Positions 6,007-36,251 of a DNA stretch of 64,000 bases are shown in pieces; within the stretch, counting starts at the first letter, position 1; every line of letters begins with the position of its first letter. Below the pieces are notes generated by a model. The model had not been told where the DNA came from. It saw only the letters and a program-made list of their open reading frames with translations, and searched no databases. The translations under genes and the position numbers were made by a program. The stretch covers positions 806,001-870,000 of the forward strand of contig JAWWNJ010000040.1 in assembly GCA_037176885.1 (NCBI GenBank). Reading direction: 5' to 3'. The DNA is from Favolaschia claudopus (lineage: Eukaryota; Basidiomycota; Agaricomycetes; Agaricales; Mycenaceae).

Positions 6007-8304
6007 TTAGAAGTGTTCAAGAACTTCCGTGCTCTCCAACAGAGCATCGCGATCATCGTTCAGCGCGAAATCAACCGCGTGGGATGCAAAACCAGGAGGC
6101 CCTCCTTTCGAAACCATCGTGTTGAGTTCAGGACAGTTACGAGAAAGGTGACCCTGTACACCACAGTTAAAGCATAAACCAGCGGCAAGGTATTCATTTC
6201 GTTTCTTAACCGAAAGATGCTTGCCGCTGTCGCGAGATTTCGACCCAGTCGTTGAAGGTTCGGGTTCAGCACTGGAAACCGAGATAACGCGCCCTCCATT
6301 ACGACGTTTCCCGTTCGAATCTGAGTCCAGTTTCTGGTCATCGGGCTTGGATTGAGTCTTACTCGATCCAGCCATATCAATCTCATCATTATCATCGTCA
6401 ACCTTGACGATAATTTCGGCGCTCTCAGCACCAGCAGTAACTTCAGCCCAAGAAGAGGTTTCTGGATCAAGTTTATCGCGAAACATTTCCTTTCGAATGT
6501 CAGGGTTGAGGCTACGCCAGAACATGACAACCTTCTCTTGGTTGGCTTCAAGACCAATGGTGTTATAAATTCGTTCCCATTCAGCCTTGTGAATTAAAAC
6601 TGACTTAGTGCCTTGGACACAAGAGCGCAATCGAGTGCGTTGTTTCTCACGGAAATTCACAGGGAAACAAAAATTGAATAAACCCCAAAAGAACTCACTC
6701 AGAGTCCAAACGTGCTCATCATTCTCAACCTTGCTGTTGTAGAATTCAAGTGCACGAGCCGTCAAATAGTACGACAAGTAAAACACTCGTTGATCAGTCG
6801 GGACTTTGCCAAGTTGCACATAATTCGATCCTTCTTTAACAAATCGATGGAATGCAATGGCATCCGGTGAGCCATCATACTCCTTTGGAGGTATAGGCTT
6901 CAATATCATTTTATTCTTCCTGTGAGAACTCCGTTTCTTCCTAGAGGAACGGCGCTTGCGACGATGACGTGACGGGTATGACCTCCCGGAACCTGAACCA
7001 TCTGAGGACTCAGAGTCGGAGTTCGACGAATCAGAAGGTTCGGATGGGGTGGGTGAACCATCCACACACTCGGCATTGCGCAGGGTGCGCTCTATAAAGC
7101 TGCCTGGCGCAACGCGTACAGCAGGAGTGGGATCGGGACGGAATCCGCGAGCTCCGTGATCCGCACCGATGTGTCTATCAATGCTGGTTTTAACAGCAGT
7201 CTGTGCCCGGGTTAAGTTAACCTTGGGCGTTATCGTCCGAGAACGTTGCAAGCTGCGGATCTGCGCTTGCAGATCAGCAATCTTTTCATCTACACTCTGG
7301 CCAGAGTTAATTGAATCCTTCATCGGCTTGAGCAATGATCTCGGAGTTCGGGGTTCGGTCCGTTCAGAAGCCAAGGTGATTGGCATCTGATCAAAGAACC
7401 CAGGTGGCGGTGAAAGCTGTTCTTCTTTGACAGCACGGCGAATTTCGGCGAAATTCTCAAGAGCGGTTCTTTGTGCGTCGATATCGCGCTCAGAGAAATC
7501 TTCCGAGAGGTTAGCTGCACCCCAGTTGCGAGGGTCAGCACCTTTACCTTTCTGGCGGGAGGTTCCAACACCAGAAGGTATGGCCGGACTGACAATAGTT
7601 TCAGGCACATTCACTGCCGATCTATCATCAATATCTATCAAGTTCGTGTTCTCATCAACGGGCGGGATCTCACGCGGGATAGTTACCCCGCGCCCCGACG
7701 CAGCAGCCAAAGCTTCCTGTGCCAAAGCTTGGTGGCGGCGAGCAACACTCACAAGCTCATCAACACTCATATTCTGAATCGCACGCGAGACAGTGGATGT
7801 GGAACGGGATAAAACATTTTGAGAGTTTATTACAGTGAGTGAATCCACCGAAACATGACGACCGGGCGTTGCCATGCGAGGCGTGGCAAGGCCTTCGTCG
7901 AGCATCCCCCAATCCACGGCTGAGGTCAAGACGGGCCCAAAGAGCTCGGTATGCGTCGAGGGTATCGACGATGAGGTCTCGTTGCCCAAAGGCAACGGTT
8001 CGACGCCCGAAGGCGAAGCGGTCTCACCACCCGAAGGTGATGGGGTCTCGCCGCCCGAAGGCAGCGGTGTATCTACACGAGGTGATGGTCGTCCACCCGA
8101 GACCGCCTGACTGTAGGAGAAGTCAGGGGAAACGGGGCGTGATTTTGTCGAGGAGGCACGACTCTCCGGTCGGGGAGTCCCAGAGCGCGGACTCGCGGTG
8201 TTGGCAGCACTGGCAGGTCTTCCAGTCAACGCAGGCAGTCCAGAGACTGCTTGGTGAGCGTGAGAGCGAAGCGGGTAACGAGCGCGGCCAGCGGGATCAG
8301 TCAT
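6007..8304 (-). CDS. Gag polyprotein with CCHC zinc knuckle
   Basis: A 765-codon open frame with no breaks. The N-terminal half is Ser/Pro/Thr-rich and probably disordered. A basic run (RHRRKRRSSRKKRSSHRK) lies in the middle. The segment from IPPKEYDGSPDAIAFHRFVK onward, with LSYYLTARALEFY, fits the Retrotrans_gag (capsid) family. One zinc knuckle, CFNCGVQGHLSRNC (CX2CX4HX4C, residues 711-724), lies near the C-terminus. The protein should package element RNA into particles. The frame ends 41 residues after the knuckle with no pol frame or slippage site downstream; only about 180 bp separate the stop from the LTR. That an intact gag survives without pol suggests it is functionally retained. 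Confidence 0.85.
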   Translation of the reverse strand: MTDPAGRARYPLRSHAHQAVSGLPALTGRPASAANTASPRSGTPRPESRASSTKSRPVSPDFSYSQAVSGGRPSPRVDTPLPSGGETPSPSGGETASPSGVEPLPLGNETSSSIPSTHTELFGPVLTSAVDWGMLDEGLATPRMATPGRHVSVDSLTVINSQNVLSRSTSTVSRAIQNMSVDELVSVARRHQALAQEALAAASGRGVTIPREIPPVDENTNLIDIDDRSAVNVPETIVSPAIPSGVGTSRQKGKGADPRNWGAANLSEDFSERDIDAQRTALENFAEIRRAVKEEQLSPPPGFFDQMPITLASERTEPRTPRSLLKPMKDSINSGQSVDEKIADLQAQIRSLQRSRTITPKVNLTRAQTAVKTSIDRHIGADHGARGFRPDPTPAVRVAPGSFIERTLRNAECVDGSPTPSEPSDSSNSDSESSDGSGSGRSYPSRHRRKRRSSRKKRSSHRKNKMILKPIPPKEYDGSPDAIAFHRFVKEGSNYVQLGKVPTDQRVFYLSYYLTARALEFYNSKVENDEHVWTLSEFFWGLFNFCFPVNFREKQRTRLRSCVQGTKSVLIHKAEWERIYNTIGLEANQEKVVMFWRSLNPDIRKEMFRDKLDPETSSWAEVTAGAESAEIIVKVDDDNDEIDMAGSSKTQSKPDDQKLDSDSNGKRRNGGRVISVSSAEPEPSTTGSKSRDSGKHLSVKKRNEYLAAGLCFNCGVQGHLSRNCPELNTMVSKGGPPGFASHAVDFALNDDRDALLESTEVLEHF

Positions 8305-20371: not shown

Positions 20372-21697
20372 ATGTACTCCGCCTTTGCCCGAAGCCGTGG
20401 TTTCACCCATCCTGACGGCAAGGTGCTCCCCGCCACCGCCGCTGGTCTCCAGCTCTGGATCGCAGAGAAGGCTCCCTTTGTCCAGCCTGCTACGCTCTCC
20501 CGTTACCTCTCCAGCTTGCGTACCATCCACATCGAGCATGGATGGTCAGTTGAGGCGCTTGACGACCCCATTCTCAAGCGCCTCATCAGCGCCGCTGAAC
20601 GCCGGTATGGTACTGCGCCCCGCCGCCTTCGTCGGCCCATCACGCGCCAGATCCTCGCTGACATTATCGCGGAGCTCCCAGACGACCATGATGGTAGGAT
20701 GCTCGCCTCCGCTTTCACCCTTGCCTGGACAGCATTCATGCGCTGCGGGGAGTTCACAGTCGCTGACGGTGCAGCCTTCGACCCCTCCATTAACCTTACA
20801 GAGGGCTGCATCTCGAATGTCACTGACTCCTCCCTTCTCTGCACCATCCAGGCAAGCAAGACGGACCCTGGACGGCGAGGGGCTCAGGTCCTTTGTGGAG
20901 CCGCTGTTGGTGCCCCAACCTGTCCTGTTGCCCGGTTCAGAGCGTACCGTGAGTGTCGTCCAGCTGTCTCCCCGTATGCTCCGCTGTTCGTCACCTCCAC
21001 GGGTGCACCCCTCTCACGCTCCTTTGCCCTCTCCGCACTTGACGACTGCCTTCGAAGGGCTGGGTATAGCTCGGGTGAGTTCACCGGCCACAGTTTCCGC
21101 CGTGGAGCTGCCTTTGCTGCTGCGGAGGCAGGGTACACTCAGGAGCAGATCAAGCTCCTGGGCCGCTGGAAGTCGGACGCGTGGAAGCTCTATGTTGACT
21201 GCCCCCTCTCCATGCTACGTGAGTTGTCCTCCAAACTCCACTCCACCTCTGCCATCTATCGCTCCCGTCCTGCCTCCACGCCCCCTGTTGCCCCCACTAC
21301 CCCTCCCCGTCTCTTCATCCGGATTCCAGCCCGTCCCACACCTCTCCCCCCTCCACCCCCTCCCCCTTCCCTCCCTGCTTCCAAGCGGCCTTCCTCGAAG
21401 CGCGCGCCTCCACCTCTCCCCCCTCCACCCAACCCCCCGGTTCTCTCCACTTCTAAACACCCTTCTTCGAGACGTGCAGCCGCATCTGTCCCCCCTCCAT
21501 CCGCTCCCCCTGCCCCCTCTACTGCAAAACGGTCTTCTTCGAAACGCGTGCCTCCGTCTGTCCCCCCTCCATCCTTACCAGCCTCGCTCCCCCGTCCCTT
21601 GAGGGCGCCAAAGCCTCCTCGCGCCGGACCCACACGTACTGCTGCTGTTTCCCGTCAAGCACAGATTACGCGGCGACGTGAGACTGGCTGGTACTAG
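20372..21697 (+). CDS. Tyrosine recombinase (phage-integrase fold)
   Basis: A 441-codon frame from this ATG. The catalytic set is visible: Arg124 in AFMRCGEF, Lys163 in QASKTDPGRRG, His240 and Arg243 in TGHSFRRGAA, Trp266 in LLGRWKSDAW at the second-His position, and the nucleophile Tyr274 in WKLYVD. An N-terminal SAM-like region precedes it (residues 1-90). From about residue 290 a Pro/Ser-rich tail with four SSKR/SSRR units follows and is probably disordered. The frame is open upstream to 20294 and encodes SLKPATRAGYDGVVAMY, like the usual start of this domain. The real start may therefore lie upstream, perhaps via splicing at the TTAG in A1. It should join the element's circular DNA to the target. 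Confidence 0.85.
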   Translation: MYSAFARSRGFTHPDGKVLPATAAGLQLWIAEKAPFVQPATLSRYLSSLRTIHIEHGWSVEALDDPILKRLISAAERRYGTAPRRLRRPITRQILADIIAELPDDHDGRMLASAFTLAWTAFMRCGEFTVADGAAFDPSINLTEGCISNVTDSSLLCTIQASKTDPGRRGAQVLCGAAVGAPTCPVARFRAYRECRPAVSPYAPLFVTSTGAPLSRSFALSALDDCLRRAGYSSGEFTGHSFRRGAAFAAAEAGYTQEQIKLLGRWKSDAWKLYVDCPLSMLRELSSKLHSTSAIYRSRPASTPPVAPTTPPRLFIRIPARPTPLPPPPPPPSLPASKRPSSKRAPPPLPPPPNPPVLSTSKHPSSRRAAASVPPPSAPPAPSTAKRSSSKRVPPSVPPPSLPASLPRPLRAPKPPRAGPTRTAAVSRQAQITRRRETGWY

Positions 21698-33890: not shown

Positions 33891-35148
33891 TTGCAGTTTG
33901 CATTGACATATGTATTGGCACAGCCGCATTTTGTAGAATTTTGAGTTGCCTCAGTATATGATTTATTCCTCCCTCAATTCCGGGTGGATTCCTTTGAGAC
34001 CATAACCAAAATTCACCGTTTTGGGAGGCGCATCCAGCCATACCAAATTCATAGCTAAATACGCGTGTCTAAAAATCTCAATATCCTTCAATAACCGTTC
34101 GGCGCGTGAATTTACACGGTGAGATCAGGGTGCTTTGAGGTAAAAGTTCAAGGTATAAACTGTTTGAATACCTCCCGGCTACACACCTCTAAAGTTTGGT
34201 GAGGGCGGATTGACGCGGCCGCGACGCGTCGAAGAAGGCCAATCAATGCGCTGATCGGACGGGTTGCCACCGCGAAAGCTCAGTGCAGGAAGAAAGGGCT
34301 GCTTGCTCAAAGGTCAATAGCGTACCCCAAATGCCTTCTCAACGCTCTGGGTCCACGCTTAGCGGAGCTTTGAGGAACAACACCTTGTAGTGACACACCA
34401 GGGCCACTGAGTGTACCCCGTTCAAGGTACCAGTGGCGGCATCTCAGCAGGTAAGAGCCTCTTCATGATCTACGGGGCGCTCCAAGACATCGAGAAAGGG
34501 CTCAAGCTTGATTGCAGATTCTGCAGAATGCCTTGAAGGTTGGCTTCCATGTTCGACCCCAGAGTCTTGGACAAATCTTGGTACTACGGCCGAATAGATA
34601 GCGTATTGTTGCTTCCTTCCTTTGCATTAATAATAATAATAATAATAAAAGATACACTAGGCAAATCCAACAAGGAACGGGTCTCCCGGTGCCCTCTTAA
34701 GTAGTCTGAAGCGCTCGCGGACCGACAGAGGTCTAAGAGGGTGGAAGAAAGAGGCAAAGCATCCCAAGTGACCGCGGATCATCATAACCAAATGATGAGC
34801 TTCTTCGACGCATCGCGGGCGCGTCAATCCGCCCCCGTTTTGTTTCAAACTTGACAGGTATGTAGCCGATAGGTATATGAACACTTTCTACCTTGGACTT
34901 TCTCTCAAAGCGCCCTGATTTTACGGCGTAATTTCACGCGCCGAACAGCTGTTGGTAGGATATTGAGATTTTGAGATTCGCGTATTTCGCTACAAATTTG
35001 GTATGGCTGGATGCGCCTCGCAAAACGGTGAATTTTGGTTATGGTCTCAAAGGAATCCACTCGGAATCGAGGGAGGAATAAATCATATACTGTAGCGCCT
35101 CAAAATTCTATCAAAATGCGGCTGTGCCAATATATTTGCAAACTGCAA
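33891..35148. mobile_element. Long-inverted-repeat element, 1258 bp
   Basis: The ends TTGCAGTTTGCA and TGCAAACTGCAA are inverted. The arms stay alignable for about 300-360 bp each, sharing GATTTATTCCTCCCTC, CAAAATTCACCGTTTTG.GAGGCGCATCCAG and GGGCGGATTGACGCG. TA flanks both sides (33889-33890, 35149-35150). There is no transposase, only a 75-codon frame. The RNA would fold into a long hairpin. Confidence 0.75.
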
Positions 35149-35727
35149 TAAACCCTCTCTTTGCATGGGTTTGACGAATAAACACTTCCTTGGTCAATCT
35201 GACCATGGTACGGGATGGTCCGACTGTGGGGCCGCAGTCAGGCTGACCGCGCCGCCACAGCCGGTTTGACCGCCGACACGGCTGATCTGACTGTGGTTTA
35301 CGAGCTTGTAAAAACACGGGATTTATGGGTAGTTATAGGCAGTATAGACTTTATGGTGTATATTGTGTATTAGACTCAACAGAATAAAGACTTGTAGCAA
35401 CATATGACAGGAACAGCCAGATTGACTGTGTTGAGAATGACTGTGCGGCGCACAGTCGGCATGACCGTGGCAGGCCACGGTCAAAATTTAGGCGGTCAGA
35501 ATAACCGCGCGAAAAATCAAATAACCGCGGCGCGGTCATACCGGCTGTGACTTCTCTCTACAGTGTGATGCACTAGCAGTTACCCGTGCTACGCTACCGT
35601 GTGATCTGGTGTGGCTGACAATCGAGGAAGAGAATTAGAGAGTTGGATTAATTATACAAATGCATGGAATTTGATTATTTAGTGTTTATTTGCGGCGCCG
35701 CCACTGCGACGACCAGTGGATGTTCCT

Positions 35728-35870
35728 TGTAACGAATCGGCACGTTACAGCGGTCACGTGGCCGAACTGGGGTAACTTGGACCCAGAAACGGACGTGAGA
35801 CGAAGGGACAGATAGTCTAACGGTTATGCGGGTGCGACTCCCGCATGTTCCATTTTCGCCTGTTGTTACA
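35728..35870 (+). repeat. Left LTR of the miniature element
   Basis: 143 bp. It differs from the right LTR by a 2-bp indel (GGACCCAG against GGACAG) and by lacking a 7-bp TTTGGCA segment. Confidence 0.9.
35805..35852 (+). other. tRNA-like sequence lacking an anticodon arm (left LTR)
   Basis: Forty-eight nt fold as follows. Acceptor stem GGGACA/TGTTCC (6 pairs, one G-U) plus discriminator A. D-arm ATAG..TTAT containing a perfect A-box match, TAGTCTAACGG. T-arm TGCGGG/CCCGCA with the 7-nt loop TGCGACT, whose B-box GGTGCGACTCC matches 10 of 11 positions. A TTTT tract follows at once, like a Pol III terminator. The anticodon arm and variable loop are missing. A- and B-boxes are only 7 nt apart, so normal Pol III use is doubtful. 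Confidence 0.75.
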
Positions 35871-35872
35871 TT

Positions 35873-35883
35873 TGGTGGAACAT
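35873..35883 (+). promoter_or_regulatory. Primer-binding site of the miniature element
   Basis: TGGTGGAACAT begins 2 nt after the left LTR. It is the exact complement of ATGTTCCA plus CCA, the predicted mature 3' end of the tRNA-like sequence in the LTR. Confidence 0.75.
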
Positions 35884-35945
35884 CAGTGAGTCGTGTTCGA
35901 CTCCCGCAGCTGGCATAAGTTGCCGAGCTTCCGCAGAACCTCGAC

Positions 35946-35956
35946 AGGAGGGCGGA
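35946..35956 (+). promoter_or_regulatory. Polypurine tract of the miniature element
   Basis: AGGAGGGCGGA directly precedes the right LTR and matches the tract next to the 3' LTR of the gag-only element at 5831. Confidence 0.75.
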
Positions 35957-36104
35957 TGTAACGAATCGGCACGTTACAGCGGTCACGTGGCCGAACTGGG
36001 GTAACTTGGACAGAAACGGACGTGAGACGAAGGGACAGATAGTCTAACGGTTATGCGGGTGCGACTCCCGCATGTTCCATTTGGCATTTTCGCCTGTTGT
36101 TACA
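35957..36104 (+). repeat. Right LTR of the miniature element
   Basis: 148 bp, otherwise matching the left LTR; carries the second tRNA-like copy (36032-36079). Confidence 0.9.
36032..36079 (+). other. tRNA-like sequence lacking an anticodon arm (right LTR)
   Basis: Identical 48 nt to 35805-35852. The TTTT tract is displaced by the 7-bp TTTGGCA segment. Confidence 0.75.
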
Positions 36105-36251
36105 TTCCTTCACCCTTGTCTTGAGCCTCATTCGTGTGTTGGTCAAGCTTACGCTTCTTTGGATTCGGCTCAGAGGTGTTGGTGCTACCGGAAGTCTGAT
36201 CTCCAAAGAATTTGAGGCGCGCGGGAGTACCGGTGTTTACTGGCGAAGCAT

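Follow-up and report, generated by a model that had tools for sequence, protein, structure and literature searches.

Retroelements primed by tRNA are described as depending on tRNA made by the host. The closest described systems to the element reported here are the Helenus TRIMs (TRIMp3), introduced in 2024 as short LTR elements that encode no protein and hold a tRNA-like sequence in each LTR (Kojima 2024, PMC10886601). According to the accessible text of that description, Helenus elements occur in Agaricomycetes, the fungal members carry a 5-bp TSD, one family forms tandem arrays and a Copia element is inferred as the mobiliser of the fungal members (PMC10886601). Their PBSs are assigned in the same text to host tRNAs, in fungi mostly to the anticodon loop, and complementarity between the tRNA-like sequence of the LTR and the PBS was not found there (PMC10886601). 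Cassandra and Ajax, as treated in that text, carry 5S rRNA in the LTR, and the primer of Ajax is host tRNA-Leu (PMC10886601). A 2026 meeting report, in its available portion, addresses transcription only.

We analysed a stretch of 64 000 nucleotides from Favolaschia claudopus (contig JAWWNJ010000040.1; hereafter the window) and searched the genome of this fungus (265 Mb). A gene near the element resembles proteins of this species at 75% and 96% identity, over 79% and 56% of the query, respectively. Reading of the sequence and comparison of direct repeats delimit a complete miniature LTR element of 377 bp at 35728–36104, with the following features.

35723–35727, no strand: left TSD, TTCCT (sequence; uninterrupted related site at C54:128476–129132).
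35728–35870, + strand: 5′ LTR, 143 nt, TG...CA (direct-repeat comparison and other copies).
35805–35852, + strand: tRNA-like 48-mer in the 5′ LTR, with acceptor GGGACA/TGTTCC, G3·U70, discriminator A, box A and T-arm.
35813–35823, + strand: box A, TAGTCTAACGG (sequence).
35831–35841, + strand: T-arm and degenerate box B, GGTGCGACTCC (sequence).
35853–35856, + strand: TTTT, candidate Pol III terminator, abutting the tRNA-like 3′ end (T4 count).
35873–35883, + strand: PBS, TGGTGGAACAT, the complement of the tRNA-like ATGTTCCA plus CCA (sequence).
35895–35904, + strand: consensus box B, GTTCGACTCC, in the internal region (counterpart in family B, GTTCAATTCC).
35946–35956, + strand: PPT, AGGAGGGCGGA (sequence; counterpart in family B, AAGAGGGGAGGG).
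35957–36104, + strand: 3′ LTR, 148 nt in this copy (LTR alignment).
36032–36079, + strand: tRNA-like 48-mer in the 3′ LTR (sequence).
36105–36109, no strand: right TSD, TTCCT (sequence).

The sequence-only reading had placed two LTRs, a TTCCT duplication, a PBS and a PPT within 377 bp, and all of these were confirmed; its claim that the PBS pairs exactly with the tRNA-like 3′ end extended by CCA likewise holds, over 11 nt. It had further described tRNA-like sequences with A- and B-boxes and a following TTTT. The 48-mers and box A stand, but box B is degenerate within the LTR, and in the 3′ LTR a small deletion and an insertion just past the tRNA-like sequence move the TTTT (36087) 7 nt farther on. 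The two LTRs of the window copy align with 0 substitutions and nine gap columns. The tRNA-like sequence of the 5′ LTR lacks an anticodon arm, and a TT dinucleotide separates this LTR from the PBS. The insertion host is another repeat, of which empty copies exist, and the empty site at C54:128476–129132 matches the left flank across 163 bases and the right flank across 500, in both cases at 100% identity. The tRNA-like sequence in its LTRs would make the element a Helenus-type TRIM.

Further copies, which the earlier reading had suggested looking for, are numerous, and the element is not a single-copy curiosity. Family A, that of the window copy, has at least 51 genome matches (68 candidates, 40 scored); a related family B, first met as an LTR adjoining one A copy, gave 24 matches when its LTR was used as the query. 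Family A elements measure 373–377 bp, with an LTR of 143 nt and an internal region of 86–87 nt, into which a retrotransposon protein would not fit; in family B, as represented by L069, the LTR is 165 nt and the internal region 96 nt. Among the regions of the listed matches, family A takes the form of two-LTR copies, solo LTRs, LTR-sharing arrays and truncated copies. TSDs, all of 5 bp, were found at 11 of 31 outer spans, and the solo LTRs L054 and L055 carry one; sorted by eye, 13 of the 20 spans without a TSD begin past a PPT or stop before PBS sequence and are not plain outer ends, and the other seven simply lack one. The 17-mer GTTACATTTGGTGGAAC, which joins the LTR end to the PBS, occurs at 45 genome places (0 in the control), all within copies of families A and B. 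Identical columns between the two families number 56 of 106 in U3, 51 of 88 in the internal remainder, 40 of 49 in the tRNA-like sequence and 12 of 13 in the PBS region; U3 scores 8.0 and the internal remainder 10.0, against shuffled maxima of 5.0. On these alignments A and B are judged to have a common ancestry, as even U3 scores above the shuffles.

Three of the listed loci (L035, L036 and L069, in C78, C3 and C7) are tandem arrays of 3–4 LTRs in which LTRs are shared. A single 5-bp TSD surrounds the whole array in L035 (family A) and L069 (family B), and L036 has none; the two arrays with a TSD either were inserted as a unit or expanded later. L040 and L056 (C33 and C40) have identical flanks, which enclose a full element at one locus but a solo LTR at the other; they are likely to be alleles that record LTR–LTR recombination, and the assembly may hold both nuclear haplotypes. 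At L031 and L049 (C78) an antisense LTR piece is fused to sense U5 or internal sequence.

The comparison of the two families carries the main finding. The acceptor GGGACA/TGTTCC of family A occurs with the PBS TGGTGGAACAT and the acceptor GGGACG/CGTTCC of family B with the PBS TGGTGGAACGT, the tRNA-like 3′ ends available for pairing being ATGTTCCA and ACGTTCCA, respectively. The match ends in both after 11 nt, comprising CCA, the discriminator and seven acceptor bases. A loose pattern recovered 57 LTR copies, 41 with GGGACA/TGTTCC, 12 with GGGACG/CGTTCC and four variants, none of them crossed; the earlier reading would have been refuted by the lack of a conserved tRNA-like fold across copies, and an exact acceptor type is kept in 53 of 57 LTR copies. 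Among 20 distinct units (internal region present, identical ones collapsed) the PBS ends in ..AT in 14 A units, in ..AC in one A unit (an ending borne by some A copies) and in ..GT in five B units, again with none crossed. Seven further units are cut short (family A, two ..AT, one ..AG and one ..AA; family B, two ..GT and one ..TA). The PBS therefore tracks the tRNA-like 3′ end across the two families instead of varying independently of it. In a pair count over a ten-row alignment the acceptor change is the sole pair altered on both sides; one such pair was also reached in 350 of 500 shuffles, so that the weight rests on the PBS moving with the acceptor. Because A and B are related, the step change amounts essentially to one informative event, at three positions. 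Since the related family B changed its tRNA-like end and its PBS in step, the element probably makes its own primer and does not borrow a host tRNA.

The tRNA-like sequence departs from a canonical tRNA. Rfam gave no match in the window at gathering scores and one weak tmRNA match only on the element at E up to 5, neither search finding 5S rRNA in the element; the covariance-model route proposed in the earlier reading thus does not recognise the sequence, and ARAGORN does not recognise the LTR sequence as a tRNA. A tRNA-Asn(ATT) called by ARAGORN elsewhere in the window (34482–34572, + strand, 91 nt, several mispairs) is probably spurious. The tRNA-like fold has an energy of −15.8 kcal/mol in family A, against a minimum of −17.9 kcal/mol, and of −11.9 (acceptor and T-arm as drawn) or −13.6 kcal/mol (acceptor enforced) in family B, against a minimum of −18.4 kcal/mol; in neither family is it the minimum-energy fold. 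The consensus of box A is TRGYNNARNNG, which TAGTCTAACGG in the LTR fits, and we take this segment to be a box A. The LTR box B is degenerate (GGTGCGACTCC in family A, CGTGCAATTCC in family B) and begins just 18 nt past box A. Both families have a consensus box B, absent from the earlier reading, in the internal region (GTTCGACTCC and GTTCAATTCC), 82 nt past box A in the window copy; if the LTR box A and the internal box B are used together, transcription would be confined to the 5′ LTR, and the two LTRs, otherwise identical, would be told apart in this way. T4 runs occur in the window copy at 35853 and 36087 only, after the first and second tRNA-like sequences, and in one B array only directly after each of its three tRNA-like sequences.

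We consider it rather probable that the element is a Helenus-type TRIM that supplies its own reverse-transcription primer. We lean slightly towards the wider proposal of an LTR retroelement that encodes a tRNA-like primer, in which one non-coding Pol III unit of <300 nt would make both template and primer, and primer and PBS would co-evolve as a closed pair with no need of the host tRNA pool, the tRNA-like sequence perhaps stemming from a captured tRNA-Ala. In this scheme a single Pol III-type unit would have two products, the template RNA and a tRNA-like primer ending in CCA. Termination at the first TTTT would give a precursor of ∼50 nt, which would be trimmed past the discriminator A before the addition of CCA; read-through to the TTTT of the 3′ LTR would give a template slightly shorter than 300 nt, in which the tRNA-like sequence serves as the R repeat. 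Either the tRNA-like RNA with its CCA end or the 3′ end of the template, which is just as tRNA-like, would anneal to the PBS and be extended by a borrowed reverse transcriptase, and the minus-strand strong-stop DNA would read tRNA-like-CCA joined to AATGTAAC. The PBS could be copied anew from the primer at every cycle, which would keep it matched to the tRNA-like sequence. Among three options raised by the sequence-only reading, an element that encodes its own primer is thus the best supported, given that the PBS changes with the tRNA-like 3′ end between A and B and that the searches described below turned up no host tRNA gene ending in either way; mimicry of a host tRNA used as primer went unsupported, and priming in cis, the third option, may still hold.

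No autonomous partner was found. L101, a relic that resembled a different LTR with a shared PBS and was considered as a partner, was rejected, as its upstream repeat is a TIR DNA element beside a decayed TRIM internal region; the other PBS-like pattern matches (L097–L100 and L102–L104) are unrelated by eye. The repeat in question, ∼600 bp by eye, is present at L165–L171 and L101, has the terminal inverted repeats TAAGATAGAGAGCGTGGGATCCCCGCACCTTA and gave at least 40 matches to its last ∼136 bases at 95–100%. Scans of IMG/VR returned 18 stretches with the 17-mer of LTR end and PBS, which were taken as chance, and none with the tRNA-like 5′ half.

Truncated copies bear on how the primer might be used. 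Ten independent copies end 3′ inside the internal region, and five of these (L033, L052, L060, L067 and L074/L075) stop 11–13 nt in, at the PBS border as judged by eye; the remaining five are L031, L078/L079, L084 and the fragments L070 and L101, neither of which has an A or B LTR upstream, and the tally omits ends ≤4 nt into the internal region, such as L030 and L057. The ends at the PBS border would fit DNA with the primer end unremoved or recopied, although they are suggestive only. L067, which runs from about LTR position 75 to the PBS followed by GCG, is the one border stub of the five to extend past the PBS, and its three additional nucleotides fit the tRNA-like sequence; it may be integrated strong-stop DNA with three primer nucleotides copied, a weak indication, as three nucleotides are too little. 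Four independent insertions (L042, L064/L065, L066 and L107) are truncated 5′ at LTR positions 55–58; the other 5′ ends scatter, and we therefore do not claim a start site. At L050/L051, one event at two places of C180, the 3′ LTR breaks at ATGTTCCA and continues with CCA and the reverse complement of U5, the junction lying in a 73-nt perfect inverted repeat; this fold-back, exactly at the tRNA-like 3′ end, is likewise suggestive only.

Such a junction of ATGTTCCA, CCA and anti-U5 would also be in keeping with self-priming, in which the primer is no separate small RNA: the full-length RNA of the element, cut back to ATGTTCCA and with CCA added or not, would prime from its 3′ end, annealing to the PBS close to its 5′ end or to the PBS of another copy. 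The predicted 3′ end of the template bears the same tRNA-like end followed by TTTT, and when the full-length RNA is folded in silico, GTTCCA from the 5′ tRNA-like sequence is base-paired with TGGAAC from the PBS. However, the inverted repeat at L050 extends into the flank, which makes a DNA-level fold-back equally likely, and the junction, a single event, can be placed anywhere within an 8-nt match. A search with the junction pattern gave six matches against five in the control, and two of the six are the C180 pair, the other four being judged by pattern alone. We regard self-priming of this kind as unlikely.

A shade less likely still is priming by a host tRNA, the LTR sequence being a tRNA-derived Pol III promoter and the PBS match an inheritance from the same tRNA lineage. 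The PBS starts with TGG, as do the PBSs of tRNA-primed elements. G3·U70 and A73 are alanine identity marks, and the longest D-arm match is to the host tRNA-Ala L131 (13 of 15; E 5.6, not significant alone); taken together, these make derivation of the tRNA-like sequence from tRNA-Ala possible. The Helenus families covered by the accessible description use host tRNAs (PMC10886601). This explanation would nevertheless require two such tRNAs, one per family, and the genome patterns and a sample of 37 host tRNAs yielded no gene with either 3′ end. The sample derives from 58 Rfam tRNA-model matches among 63 scored of 8616 candidates; as a positive control, ARAGORN detects all 37 tRNAs compared, and the B-box spacing of the search pattern holds for every one of them. 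The best match of a 3′ end to the PBS among them is a tRNA-Ala with seven contiguous and eight total of 11, and the longest match elsewhere is 9 nt, in the intron region of an Arg tRNA.

A search for TGTTCCA preceded by a canonical T-arm returned 21 matches (18 with the reversed pattern), none of the 21 being a tRNA by ARAGORN. A wider NGTTCCA pattern gave 76 (25 reversed), of which 66 are by their letters one gag repeat; all five matches that end in TGTTCCA or CGTTCCA were inspected and proved not to be tRNAs. ARAGORN rejected the NGTTCCA candidates in C10, C53, C211, C20 and C18, a check that left out those ending in GGTTCCA in C34, C63 and C242; the candidate in C10 (L092) would pair nine of 11 at its 3′ end, but neither ARAGORN nor Rfam sees a tRNA there. 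The 5′-half pattern, GGGACR with box A, gave 80 matches against five in the control, 77 of which are by their letters A or B copies, and the candidates in C26, C171 and C242 are not tRNAs by ARAGORN. The search for a host tRNA with the acceptor GGGACA/TGTTCC, which the earlier reading had proposed, thus found none, and mimicry of such a tRNA gains no support from the genome matches, though an origin from tRNA-Ala may hold. A gag-like ORF with a CCHC zinc knuckle lies in the window at 6007–8304 (− strand), and the same gag peptide is encoded in L096 (by eye), one of the 66 similar pattern matches. A 441-amino-acid ORF at 20372–21697 (+ strand) is tyrosine recombinase-like by eye, with no Pfam match at 0.001.

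The complementarity could instead be structural, an R–PBS hairpin that serves packaging, dimerisation or PBS masking and is unrelated to the primer. Six of the eight hairpin pairs are present in the predicted full-length RNA fold, and the complementarity is retained in A and B, but such a role does not account for a match that starts exactly after the discriminator base; it also leaves unexplained why TGG, two bases into the internal region, should match a CCA that the LTR does not contain, and why no PBS-fitting host tRNA is present among those found. We consider it improbable. Chance or shared descent, whereby A and B inherited a once-accidental match, is very improbable: the two families share ancestry and the step change counts as a single event, but ATGTTCCA appears anywhere in a mononucleotide-shuffled LTR in only 23 of 10 000 shuffles, and more rarely still at one given place, and acceptor and PBS changed jointly against a background of wide divergence in U3 and the internal remainder.

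The preferred reading, that of a primer encoded by the element, has consequences beyond this locus. If true, a matched pair of primer and PBS would break the dependence on host tRNA, and where TRIMs carry a small-RNA gene in the LTR, this may in some of them serve beyond promoter use. No description of such a matched pair was found in the literature covered, in which subscription papers were thinly represented and preprints and the 2024 supplements were not included. Tf1 self-primes with the first 11 nt of its own mRNA; the element would resemble it in taking its primer from its own RNA and not from a host tRNA, but differs in that its PBS matches the tRNA-like 3′ end plus CCA, 40 nt from the tRNA-like start, the 5′ end of the transcript being only putative here. 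The template RNA of the Mauriceville mitochondrial retroplasmid ends in a CCA tRNA-like structure at which reverse transcription starts; unlike the LTR element, the retroplasmid has neither PBS nor integration. The mascRNA of MALAT1-type transcripts is a tRNA-like RNA trimmed and given CCA by host tRNA enzymes, but is the product of a host long RNA and not a primer. In contrast to tRNA-derived SINEs, which lack LTRs and use target-primed reverse transcription, the element has LTRs, a PPT, 5-bp TSDs and solo LTRs.

As with Cassandra and Ajax, in so far as their accessible description goes, a small-RNA-gene Pol III promoter would lie within the LTR of a TRIM, theirs being 5S rRNA and the putative one of the element tRNA-like. 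With Helenus, as portrayed in the available text, the element shares two LTRs, a total length of <1000 bp, the absence of coding capacity, a PBS, a PPT and a 5-bp TSD (PMC10886601). It differs from the Helenus families described there in having a PBS that none of the 37 sampled host tRNAs fits (at best seven contiguous of 11), which is not a definitional difference, and above all in that its PBS is the exact complement of the 3′ end of its own LTR tRNA-like sequence plus CCA and changes in step with it (PMC10886601). The remark in the sequence-only reading that no parallel was known for a tRNA-like LTR sequence matched to the PBS thus needs dividing: tRNA-like LTRs are known from Helenus, and the matched PBS is unreported in the text consulted (PMC10886601). 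The tRNA-like LTR being already known, the new part, relative to that text, is the matched PBS, a property that Helenus was said to lack; the element would provide a positive case for the question that Kojima (2024, PMC10886601) posed there and answered negatively.
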